Assembly: GCA_021777375.1 (NCBI GenBank)
Contig: JAJYDV010000004.1
Span: forward strand, 1-64,000
Source: a bacterium
GTDB taxonomy: Bacteria; Patescibacteriota; Saccharimonadia; Saccharimonadales; UBA4665
Reading direction: 5' to 3'
DNA: 64,000 nucleotides
Shown: one piece after another, positions 42,658 to 58,527 of the stretch
Numbering within the stretch: position 1 is the first letter of the stretch
Layout: the number at the start of each line of letters is the position of its first letter
Notes under the pieces: generated by a model
What the model saw: the letters and a program-made list of their open reading frames with translations, nothing else
Told to the model about the DNA's origin: nothing
Databases searched by the model: none
Made by a program: the position numbers and the translations under genes

Positions 42658-43623
42658 TTATGATGCTTTATCCCAGGGGAAGTTATTGCCAAAATGGCCG
42701 TACTGGGCGGTTTGCTCAAACTGAGGCCGGTCAAGTTTTAAGAAACTAATTATGCCACTTGGTGTTAAATCATAGCCCGTTACCTGTTCCTCGACTCCAT
42801 CTACTGAGACAATAGCTTCTACGGGTTCAGCTACTCCAATCGCGTAAGCCAGTTGAGCAAATACCTCTTTTGCGCCGCGTTTTTTTAAATAGTCTACAGC
42901 AATCTTGCGGGCCATATAGGCTCCTGAACGATCAACTTTCGAAGCATCTTTGCCACTAAAAGCTCCTCCTCCGATTGGAATCCTTGGGCCGTAACTGTCA
43001 ACCGCAAGCTTCCTGCCGGTAAGTCCGGTATCAGCATCAAAACCGCCGATCTTCCAATCGCCCGCCGGATTAGCGAATATTTCGATATTTGAAAGGTGCG
43101 GGATGCTCTTTAGCCAGGAGTTAATTAAGGTCTCAAGCTCTTTTTTTGTGGAATGCTGAAAGCTGGCAACAATCGTCGCTACCTGATCGTTGTTTAGCGT
43201 TATTTGAGTCTTGCCGTCAAAAGGGAACTGTGTGTAGAGGTAACGATTTAGGGCTCGGCTGAGTTCTACTTCCAATGGCAGAAGACTCTTTGTCTCATTG
43301 GTGGCATAGCCAACCATAATTCCTTGATCACCAGCACCGCCAAGATCTACTCCGGAAGCAATCTCACTGCTTTGCTGTACCACCTGAACCCTAACCTCGT
43401 AACTATCATCAATGAAACGGCGAGCGATTTTAGTGTAGTCTATATCTGCATCACTACTTACTTCACCAATTACGGTAAGTAATTTGTGACCACCTAAGGT
43501 TTCAACTGCAACTCTTGAATTAGGATCTTGGGCTAGAGCCGCATCGACAATACTATCCGATATTTGATCACAAATTTTATCCGGATGTTTGGGGGATACA
43601 GATTCTGCGGTTCGTAGGTTCAT
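42658..43623 (-). CDS. metK: S-adenosylmethionine synthetase (short form)
   Basis: 321 residues against 380-400 usually. ATP and metal motifs remain: SPKHPDKICDQISDS, GAGDQGIMVGYAT, DTGLTGRKLAVDSYGP, GGGAFSGKDASKVDRSGAY and YAIGVAEP. The missing length falls mainly in the central domain. It makes SAM from methionine and ATP. Expression is controlled by the SAM riboswitch and terminator directly upstream, so this is classical product feedback. Ends near the convergent isomerase gene. Confidence 0.95.
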   Translation of the reverse strand: MNLRTAESVSPKHPDKICDQISDSIVDAALAQDPNSRVAVETLGGHKLLTVIGEVSSDADIDYTKIARRFIDDSYEVRVQVVQQSSEIASGVDLGGAGDQGIMVGYATNETKSLLPLEVELSRALNRYLYTQFPFDGKTQITLNNDQVATIVASFQHSTKKELETLINSWLKSIPHLSNIEIFANPAGDWKIGGFDADTGLTGRKLAVDSYGPRIPIGGGAFSGKDASKVDRSGAYMARKIAVDYLKKRGAKEVFAQLAYAIGVAEPVEAIVSVDGVEEQVTGYDLTPSGIISFLKLDRPQFEQTAQYGHFGNNFPWDKAS

Positions 43624-43626
43624 ATA

Positions 43627-43662
43627 TAAAAAATCCTTTCTACCATCACAGTAAGAAAGGAT
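43627..43662 (-). terminator. Intrinsic terminator abutting the metK start
   Basis: On the minus strand ATCCTTTC-T-TAC pairs with GTA-GAAAGGAT (one bulged T, 7 nt loop), followed by six U. It ends 3 nt before the metK ATG. The 3' arm contains AAGGA, the only candidate Shine-Dalgarno, so the same hairpin can stop transcription and hide the ribosome site. Confidence 0.85.
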
Positions 43663-43667
43663 AAACT

Positions 43668-43765
43668 AATATCTTCTCCGCATATGACGGACTAGATGGG
43701 GCACCTGTTTTATTCAGGTTGCCGGCAGGTCATCGAGCTAGATCTCTCGCTGCACTCAAAATATT
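43668..43765 (-). promoter_or_regulatory. SAM riboswitch (SAM-I/SAM-IV clan)
   Basis: Closing helix P1: AATATTTT pairs with AAGATATT over 8 bp (one G-U). Inside lie GAGTGCAGCGAG, GATGACCTGCCGGCAACCTG, CAGGTGCCCC and a hairpin TCCG-TCATATG-CGGA followed by GAAGATA. The GCCGGCAACC ... GGTGC core and the GAAGATA end are conserved in SAM-I/SAM-IV aptamers; GAGTGC and GGTGCCCC lean towards SAM-IV or the I/IV variants, the P4-like hairpin towards SAM-I. It precedes metK and its terminator. SAM binding would favour the terminator; the antiterminator strand was not resolved by eye. Confidence 0.85.
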
Positions 43766-43840
43766 TTAAATTGTTAATGCATAGACTAGTTTAGCATATA
43801 TCTCTAATCTTCCGGAACAGGCTTTTGAAATAGGCATATT

Positions 43841-55978: not shown

Positions 55979-56608
55979 ATGTTTTCAAATCTAACGGGAA
56001 TCGAAATCCTATATTTCTTCGTTGCTCTTTTGATTAGCATGATCGCTCACGAAGTTATGCACGGAGTAACGGCCAAAGCTTTAGGGGATCCGACAGCAGC
56101 AGATATGGGGAGATTGACCCTGAATCCACTTAAGCATATCGATCTTATGACGACCATAGTCCTCCCTCTGGCGCTTGTTCTGGTGCATTTGCCCCCGATT
56201 ATGGCTGCTAAACCCGTGCCTTTTAATCCTAATAGAGTTAAGTTCGGTGACTACGGTGCGGCTTTAGTTGGTGCCGCCGGGCCAGCTACTAATTTTGCTT
56301 TGGCAATTATCGGTTCAATCCTGGCTCATATTGTAATAAACGGAAACCCGCAACTACTAGAATTCCTTGGCTTATTTATCCAAATTAACGTAATCTTGAT
56401 GGTCTTTAACTTAATACCAATCCCGCCACTAGATGGTTCGAGAGTTCTTTACGCTTTTGCGCCTGAGCCATTGCGCAGGGTTATGGAAAAAATTGAATCA
56501 ATGGGTTTTATGGCAATTCTATTAATCATTTTAATAGTCTTTGAGTTTATGTCTAATCAGATAATTGGCATTGAAAACGCGGTTTTACGAGTTGTAATAA
56601 ACCTTTAG
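55979..56608 (+). CDS. Site-2-protease-type membrane metalloprotease (M50)
   Basis: 209 residues. HEVMHGVTAKALGDPTAADMGRL holds the HExxH zinc motif in a membrane helix; NLIPIPPLDGSRVLYA holds the third ligand. Five or six membrane helices, no PDZ domain, as in the compact rhomboid-like Zn proteases of CPR and Firmicutes (YdiF/SpoIVFB-like minimal forms). TATACT at 55964-55969 precedes it with no Shine-Dalgarno. Confidence 0.88.
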   Translation: MFSNLTGIEILYFFVALLISMIAHEVMHGVTAKALGDPTAADMGRLTLNPLKHIDLMTTIVLPLALVLVHLPPIMAAKPVPFNPNRVKFGDYGAALVGAAGPATNFALAIIGSILAHIVINGNPQLLEFLGLFIQINVILMVFNLIPIPPLDGSRVLYAFAPEPLRRVMEKIESMGFMAILLIILIVFEFMSNQIIGIENAVLRVVINL

Positions 56609-56633
56609 GTGAATCTTCGATATAATGTACTTA

Positions 56634-56788
56634 GGTCGGGTATGAAGGTTTTAAAATACCTTTAGCCAAGTAATGATTATCTGAATACAAATCATTAGGG
56701 AGCCCGCATCACTTCGGCCGTGGTCGTAGTGAGAGGGCACCCACCTGGGAAATCTCAGGTTAATCAGCTTGGCGCCCGACTTATTTTT
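56634..56788 (+). ncRNA. Stand-alone structured RNA, multi-branched; 6S-like or new
   Basis: TATAAT at 56621-56626 would start RNA at 56633-56634. Ends close: GTCGGG (56635-56640) with CCCGAC (56775-56780), followed by TTATTTTT. Inside: a small hairpin AAGGT/ACCTT, then GCCAAG (56665-56670) with CTTGGC (56768-56773). This helix opens into three hairpins: TAATGATT/AATCATTA (56671-56697); GCCC-TCACT-CGGC against GTCG-AGTGA-GGGC (56702-56738); ACCTGG/TCTCAGGT (56743-56760). A closing stem, a large junction and a terminal hairpin recall 6S RNA, but the three-hairpin junction is not typical. No ORF. Confidence 0.65.
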
Positions 56789-56805
56789 AGAAAACTACAG
56801 ATTAA

Positions 56806-56880
56806 CGGGGTGTAGCGCAGCGGTAGCGCGTACGGCTGGGGGCCGTGAGGTCGCAGGTTCGATCCCTGTCACCCCGACCA
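56806..56880 (+). tRNA. tRNA-Pro(GGG)
   Basis: Acceptor CGGGGTG/CACCCCG, anticodon loop CTGGGGG (GGG), T-arm GCAGGTTCGATCCCTGT, encoded CCA. It begins 18 nt after the U-rich end of the structured RNA and could share its transcript. Confidence 0.95.
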
Positions 56881-57136
56881 AGGAAATGCATGCAACATTA
56901 TGTCGCGGCCCTTGATTTAGTAGATGCGTACCTAATTCATATGGGAAAGGGATAAATTATAAAGAGCATAACTCATATATGCTCCAATACTTTACTTTTA
57001 ATCTTTTGCTAACAGAAGCTCTACAATTATTTCCCTAAGAGGAATCCTTGATTTTTTGAGAATTCAAAACAGGTAATTAATAGACCCTTTTTAGTACGGA
57101 CTAATTTCTTCGAGGACTATTAATATCCTAGAGGCT

Positions 57137-57268
57137 ATGGGCGGAATGGCCGATAAGAGACAACAAGATACCATTGTCGAGAAGCGATTTAAAATAGGTG
57201 ACTTAGAAACTCTAAAGTTGCCAGGTCGTATCGACTACTATTTAAACCGTAAGCTATTGATTACATAA
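57137..57268 (+). CDS. Possible 43-residue small protein
   Basis: In the 558 nt between tRNA-Pro and the RNase H fusion, this ORF (MGGMADKRQQDTIVEKRFKI...) has a basic and amphipathic look and GAGG upstream. No family recognised. The rest of the stretch, AT-rich with no hairpin or repeat I could find, appears empty. Confidence 0.3.
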   Translation: MGGMADKRQQDTIVEKRFKIGDLETLKLPGRIDYYLNRKLLIT

Positions 57269-57438
57269 TCCATCTAACAACCTGAGATTAATTGTTCCAA
57301 GCCGACCGAACAAAGGGGGAAATAGAGACACACCAGAAAACTAATAGCTTTACTGTAACGTAAGTCTCATAGTTAATCTGGTTGTCTTAAAAAACTTTGT
57401 TTGCACTGAATCGATCTAATCACTAGTATAGATAGGAT

Positions 57439-58134
57439 ATGTGGCAAGAAACAAAACACGGACTATTTAAGCAATTCACGTTCATTAACTTTAAAGAAGC
57501 CTTTGACTTCATGACCCAGGTTGCGGCGGTCGCAAATCAGCAAAACCATCATCCAAGGTGGGAAAATGAATGGAACGTTGTAAAAATATGGCTTTCTACT
57601 CACGATCAACAGAATAAAATTACTGATCAGGACAAAAGATTAGCTGCTGCGATCGACGAGTTAGTAAAGGCTGGGGAGCCGATAGATAAGTGGGAACAAG
57701 AGGGCGTAGGCGTGAATCACATGAGAGTAAAACTCTACACTGATGGAGGATCCAGGGGTAACCCAGGACCAAGCGCCAGTGGCTACGTACTTTTTGATGA
57801 GCAGGACAAAATTATTGAAGATAAGGGAGTTTACTTAGGCATAACTACTAATAACCAAGCTGAATATACGGCACTGAAGCTAGGTTTAGAGGATGCTCTT
57901 AAGCACCAGGCTAGCATAGTTGATGTTTACATGGATAGTTTGTTAGTTGTTAACCAGATGAAAGGTAGCTTCAAAGTGCGTAATCGTGACCTATGGCCAA
58001 TTCATTCGGCAATTATGGATCTTACGCGTCAGTTTAAGCAGGTTAGTTTCACTCATGTCCCTAGAGAGCTGAATAAATTAGCCGATGCAGCAGTAAATCG
58101 TGCCCTAGACGAAGCTCTAGGCATAACCGGTTAA
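57439..58134 (+). CDS. Pterin-4a-carbinolamine dehydratase / RNase HI fusion
   Basis: 231 residues. Residues 1-80 form a PCD/DCoH domain: FKQFTFINFKEAFDFMTQVA, then the catalytic NHHPRWENEWNVVKIWLSTHD and ITDQDKRLAAAIDEL. From about residue 95 an RNase HI follows: KLYTDGGSRGNPGPSASGYV, NQAEYTALKLGLEDAL, DVYMDSLLVVNQMKG and LADAAVNRAL, i.e. the D-E-D-D carboxylates. The linker is short (EPIDKWEQEGVGVNHMR). RNase HI removes RNA from RNA-DNA hybrids. What the pterin dehydratase adds is unknown; biopterin hydroxylases are not seen here. TATAGA at 57427-57432 lies 6 nt before the ATG. Confidence 0.9.
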   Translation: MWQETKHGLFKQFTFINFKEAFDFMTQVAAVANQQNHHPRWENEWNVVKIWLSTHDQQNKITDQDKRLAAAIDELVKAGEPIDKWEQEGVGVNHMRVKLYTDGGSRGNPGPSASGYVLFDEQDKIIEDKGVYLGITTNNQAEYTALKLGLEDALKHQASIVDVYMDSLLVVNQMKGSFKVRNRDLWPIHSAIMDLTRQFKQVSFTHVPRELNKLADAAVNRALDEALGITG

Positions 58135-58154: not shown

Positions 58155-58511
58155 CCAGATTATCGGTTGGTCGCATGTCCGTTAAGGACATGAGGAAAGT
58201 CCGGGCAGCAAAGGGAAGGACAGTCGCTAACGGCGACCGGGCGTAAGCCTAGGGAAAGTGCCACAGAAACAATACCGCCTTTGGAATTTAAGGTAAGGGT
58301 GAAAAGAGCGGGGTAAGAGCCCGCAGCGCCATGTAGTGATACAAGGTGAATGGTAAACCCTGTCTGCTGCAAGGAGATGGATTCTCAAGGCCTAAAGCCT
58401 TAAGTGTCCCGCTCATAGGGATTCATCAATTCAATCCGCTCGATCCTGAAGGCAACTTTAGGACTAGATAGATGACCAACTAAAACAGAACCCGGCTTAC
58501 GGATAATCTGG
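58155..58511 (+). ncRNA. rnpB: RNase P RNA
   Basis: Ends pair as P1: CCAGATTATC (58155-58164) with GATAATCTGG (58502-58511). Universal elements are present: GAGGAAAGTCCGGGC, ACAGAAACAATACCGCC, GTAAGGGTGAAA, GGGGTAAGAGCCCGC, and the 3' block GATAGATGACC then AACAGAACCCGGCTTAC. About 357 nt, type A. The ribozyme matures tRNA 5' ends. A U-rich TCTTTATTGTTATT follows. Confidence 0.95.
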
Positions 58512-58527
58512 TCTTTATTGTTATTAA

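Follow-up and report, generated by a model that had tools for sequence, protein, structure and literature searches.

The window analyzed here, a 64,000-nucleotide stretch of a Saccharimonadales contig, carries on its forward strand a non-coding RNA gene of about 155 nt (56634-56788), followed by tRNA-Pro(GGG) on the same strand (56806-56880), a possibly co-transcribed downstream gene, and farther along by RNase P RNA (RF00010; 58155-58515). The upstream neighbor encodes an M50-family peptidase (55979-56608). A sequence-only reading of this DNA had proposed an independent structured RNA gene at 56634-56788, with its own promoter and U-rich end and without an open reading frame (ORF). Those coordinates proved right almost to the base: a covariance model built from 44 matches within the family only (R2; an earlier model, R1, was built from ten sequences) places the RNA at 56634-56789 on the forward strand with a score of 150.5 bits. 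The predicted fold has an energy of -66.2 kcal/mol, compared with -39.1 +/- 3.8 for shuffled sequence (z = -7.16), and none of 200 shuffles was as stable. Together with its conservation among relatives and the covariation of its helices, described below, this stability bears out the claim of an independent structured RNA. The absence of an ORF is likewise upheld, with none of at least 60 amino acids on the forward strand between 56609 and 57438. The 0.72-Mb source genome contains a single copy of the RNA.

The promoter exists in the form of a -10 box, TATAAT (56621-56626, forward strand), 7 nt ahead of the first helix, and the predicted 5' end of the RNA lies at 56633-56634. This box is perfect in 36 of the 44 family loci and matches at least five of six positions in all of them. 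Since shuffled upstream sequence reaches five of six in a third of cases, we give weight to the perfect boxes. No recognizable -35 box was found upstream of the RNA. At the other end, the U-rich tract that had been noted is present, extending to 56788, but no terminator is called there on the forward strand.

The fold begins with an outer closing stem, P1 (56634-56640 paired with 56775-56781), in which 94.8% of alignment cells are paired and all seven pairs show changes on both sides. On the 5' side of this stem sits a lineage-specific hairpin, P2 (56644-56663), with double changes in six of six pairs, a result repeated (6/6) on a sequence-only alignment. The inner closing stem, P3 (56665-56670 with 56768-56773), is 98% paired and also shows double changes; its 3' strand and that of P1 together occupy 56768-56781 and lead into the U-rich end. 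A short 6S-like downstream helix, UGAUUA/UAAUCA (56674-56679 with 56761-56766), then borders a central bubble. It is complete in 41 of 44 relatives and retains at least five of its six pairs in all 44, and locus L033 carries a compensated change (UGAUAA/UUGUCA). The 5' strand of the bubble (56680-56697) contains a nearly invariant UCUGA(A)UA. Beyond it rises an apical arm, GGGAGCC...GGGCACCC (56698-56742), with a conserved CCGUGG tip; its lower part is 98.7% paired, its GGG/CCC is invariant, and the arm is aligned by the Rfam 6S model RF00013. The 3' bubble strand, CCCACCUGG...CAGGU (56740-56760), forms a hairpin at 56744-56759 that is 97.3% paired. This strand matches the most conserved stretch of RF00013, and its hairpin part includes CCCACCU. 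All of these elements lie on the forward strand.

Relatives of the RNA were sought in sets of 93 family, 295 order and 380 phylum genomes. Plain DNA search recovered it in 68 of the 93 family genomes, and R2 matched 193 of the 295 order genomes, nearly always as one copy per genome. R2 found nothing in about a third of the order genomes and in most of the phylum genomes, through divergence, incompleteness or loss. Two genomes (G027 and G033) have two R2 matches each, representing a second copy or contamination. The named carriers of the core motif are Candidatus Saccharibacteria and one Patescibacteria group bacterium, the others being unclassified metagenome-assembled genomes, which makes the source a Saccharibacteria-type genome. 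No viral contig contains the exact core pattern, a result that speaks against a virus-borne origin.

Covariation among these homologues, which the sequence-only reading had suggested testing, supports the helices. In an alignment of 44 sequences, itself fitted to the structure, 92.3% of cells are paired and both partners change in 37 of 50 pairs; the covariation score of 0.472 compares with 0.193 for shuffles and at most 0.10 when pairing partners are slid. A sequence-only alignment of ten relatives gave a comparable score (0.444 versus 0.223 shuffled). RNAalifold applied to a plain MAFFT alignment dropped P2 and P3 owing to shifted registers, which was remedied with a hand-set structure and model-based alignment.

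What this RNA might be had been left between two options, a reduced 6S RNA of the Candidate Phyla Radiation (CPR) or an undescribed family, with an Rfam search suggested as the check. That search does return 6S: RF00013 matches 56677-56763 with 26.2 bits (E 0.0031), the genome's only match to the model at E values up to 10, but the score falls below the gathering cut-off of 46.4 bits, which is a curators' threshold and not a biological feature. None of the 93 family genomes exceeds this cut-off. At E values up to 1 the family yields 23 RF00013 matches, 21 of them on this RNA, and the best (43.9, 37.7 and 34.0 bits) extend over the whole model. Among the 380 phylum genomes, RF00013 matches 31 at E values up to 0.01, and R2 matches 85. 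Both models match in 22 phylum genomes, and in every one of these they place the RNA at the same position of the same contig and on the same strand. Four of these 22, the only four among the 380, have RF00013 matches over the cut-off (55.4-60.2 bits), and R2 matches all four with E values below 1e-5. R2 also matches each of the 20 best phylum RF00013 loci, with E values of at most 0.01 in 19. The reverse also holds, in that RF00013 matches the same place in non-family loci picked by R2 (L108, 38.8 bits; L102, 38.2 bits; L101, L103, L104 and L107).

R2 finds no match to E. coli ssrS, and the link to classical 6S RNA therefore runs through intermediates and is not direct. Such intermediates form a chain from the window RNA to accepted 6S RNAs, which supports common descent. 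Its architecture conforms as well, with a closing stem, central bubble and apical arm, although an extra hairpin interrupts the closing stem, and it is a free-standing gene with a conserved -10 box whose length falls within the roughly 150-200 nt expected of 6S. We conclude that the RNA at 56634-56788 is very probably a divergent 6S RNA (ssrS) homologue in a form typical of the Saccharibacteria order. Because it scores below the gathering cut-off, we claim homology to 6S and not formal membership of RF00013. Of the two options, the reduced CPR 6S RNA is thus borne out by the intermediate relatives and the agreement of the two models, while the graded series of RF00013 scores, running up to and over the cut-off, speaks against an undescribed family.

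The least improbable rival is an RNA like Ms1, which is structurally related to 6S but binds core RNA polymerase without sigma and does not act as a template. Actinobacteria are the usual hosts of cultured Saccharibacteria. Ms1 has a 6S-like outline in common with the window RNA and occurs in Actinobacteria (PMC9130861), as a family separate from 6S. Against it, the match is to RF00013 itself, whose cut-off four phylum members exceed; Rfam matches at E values up to 10 include none of Ms1 type; and UCUGAAUA, the predicted template strand, hardly varies, as would be expected if it is read. We regard an Ms1-like RNA as very improbable. Still less room is left for an undescribed family that resembles 6S by convergence. 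The sub-threshold score, the extra hairpin and bistable bubble, and the failure of R2 to match E. coli ssrS would fit such a family, but in all 22 genomes where both match, two independently made models point to the same coordinates and strand, and this, with the graded scores that reach and pass the RF00013 cut-off, largely refutes it.

The position of the gene bears on a further rival, that it serves the tRNA-Pro transcript as a leader or processing element and is not a separate RNA. In 26 of the 44 family loci, tRNA-Pro(GGG) lies 4-37 nt downstream on the same strand, and it is also found downstream in more distant loci (e.g., L102, L105 and L107). The gap is shortest at L038, where 4 nt leave no room for a terminator and co-transcription of the 6S homologue with tRNA-Pro is likely. 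In the other 18 family loci, by contrast, such a neighbor is absent, more distant or on the opposite strand, and several of these have a terminator hairpin directly after the RNA. This distribution leaves the leader reading with almost no credibility. Equally remote is the idea that the RNA is the signal recognition particle (SRP) RNA of Saccharibacteria, missed by the Rfam SRP models in the source genome. SRP RNA is indeed unaccounted for: RF00169 and RF01854 match nothing genome-wide, and RF00169, which is positive in most controls, gives nothing over its cut-off in 30 relatives. Yet the SRP models have no match at the 6S locus even at E 10, where the locus matches 6S, and the lone weak RF00169 match among the relatives (G095:C83:7309) is not the R2 site of that genome (G095:C34:8109). 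Either the group's SRP RNA has diverged strongly or it has escaped detection. RNase P RNA is rejected because its RF00010 match is the separate gene at 58155-58515, and tmRNA because neither ARAGORN nor Rfam calls one in the window; the earlier remark that the RNA lacks SRP, tmRNA and RNase P signatures is thus confirmed by these tools.

Comparison with studied 6S RNAs clarifies what is ordinary and what is unusual in the 6S homologue. Like the E. coli-type RNA (SsrS, RF00013), it is a free-standing gene with a closing stem, downstream helix, central bubble and apical arm, and it has the consensus GGG...CCCACCU around the bubble. It differs from E. coli 6S in being shorter (155 versus 183 nt), in its shortened closing stem with an inserted hairpin, in a 3' bubble hairpin that the free RNA is predicted to have formed already, in scoring below the Rfam cut-off, and in its linkage to tRNA-Pro in place of fau/ygfA. 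P2 is absent from five family loci (L033, L034, L035, L036 and L045), and because the first four are the family's top RF00013 scorers, P2 looks like a later insertion. The B. subtilis 6S-1 RNA offers another parallel: its 3' bubble hairpin is present in the free RNA and its downstream helix is unwound by product RNA, while the 5' bubble is open, its weak hairpin having gone unconfirmed by probing, and the 3' strand takes part in a collapse helix (PMC8876501). In its predicted fold, the Saccharibacteria RNA shares the 3' bubble hairpin and the downstream helix with 6S-1; unlike in 6S-1, the 5' strand of its downstream helix can also find a partner within the 5' bubble. A B. subtilis-like collapse helix, looked for by eye, is not consistently kept among the relatives, and we do not claim one.

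The extra closing-stem hairpin and a competing hairpin in the 5' bubble explain why this RNA does not look rod-like, and both are absent from those relatives that most resemble 6S. The sequence-only reading had described three hairpins meeting in a junction unlike the rod-shaped 6S fold. That description stands in part. The closing-stem hairpin and the 5' bubble hairpin are lineage-specific, but a 3' hairpin is known from several 6S RNAs (PMC8876501); moreover, the first of the three (56671-56697) competes with an alternative pairing, and a further hairpin exists at 56644-56663. The competition arises where 56671-56697 can close on itself as a 5' bubble hairpin, using the UGAUUA of the downstream helix. 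When the window RNA is forced into either form, the energies are -66.2 and -66.0 kcal/mol, the minimum-energy fold being the one with the downstream helix, and the two forms lie less than 3 kcal/mol apart in 31 of 44 family sequences. These energies lead us to predict a bistable bubble. The 5' bubble hairpin is wanting in several family members and the downstream helix in none, making the 6S-like form the safer ground state. 6S RNAs do not usually carry a hairpin in the 5' bubble of the ground state.

6S RNA docks on RNA polymerase by mimicking an open promoter and is released through synthesis of a product RNA. If established 6S biology applies, the Saccharibacteria RNA would imitate an open promoter, dock on RNA polymerase and hold the RpoD (sigma-70) form of the enzyme in starved cells. 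The usual target is present, since the genome encodes a canonical RpoD whose C-terminal domain scores over the NCBIfam cut-off. Polymerase would then read the 5' bubble strand as template, starting near 56686-56688, and the resulting short product RNA would unwind the downstream helix (56674-56679 with 56761-56766) and so free the RNA. We propose that the unwound strand can find a new partner inside the bubble (56671-56697), a step that could assist or fine-tune the switch. A fuller version of this idea, tentative and on balance doubtful, is a two-state 6S RNA in Saccharibacteria, in which UGAUUA (56674-56679), common to the downstream helix and the near-isoenergetic 5' bubble hairpin, would constitute a built-in switch between capture and release, with many members co-transcribed with tRNA-Pro(GGG) and RNase P cleavage shaping the 6S 3' end. 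Two long, divergent sigma-70-like proteins are encoded besides RpoD (L126, 973-2265, and L127, 367-2214, on contigs C13 and C15), unusual for so small a genome; they are possible partners in a sigma switch under 6S control.

6S RNA has been described from most bacterial phyla, and its spread is reportedly treated by Wehner et al. (2014). The CPR is almost blank to RF00013, with the four phylum genomes over the cut-off noted above. Our literature search, which covered titles outside subscription, found no paper joining "6S RNA" and "Saccharibacteria," and single matches for "Patescibacteria" and "candidate phyla" were unrelated to 6S; an earlier prediction is possible. If our identification is right, very reduced, host-dependent bacteria have retained a global control of RNA polymerase, and their 6S RNA would represent a natural variant of the capture-release mechanism. 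R2 would allow 6S to be annotated throughout the group.

Several other features of the window and related loci came to light. In the window and in seven order loci (L069, L094, L095, L097, L101, L102 and L103), the genes for RNase P RNA and the 6S homologue are no more than about 1.5 kb apart, sometimes with tRNA-Pro as well, and together they make a loose RNA gene cluster. Between tRNA-Pro and the next gene, about 550 bases (56890-57438) contain no listed ORF or Rfam match, a long interval for a compact genome. That next gene (57439-58134, forward strand) is a single ORF joining a pterin-4a-carbinolamine dehydratase domain to an RNase H domain. On the reverse strand at 42658-43767, a SAM riboswitch scoring just over its cut-off (47.0 bits) precedes a gene that reads as S-adenosylmethionine synthetase.
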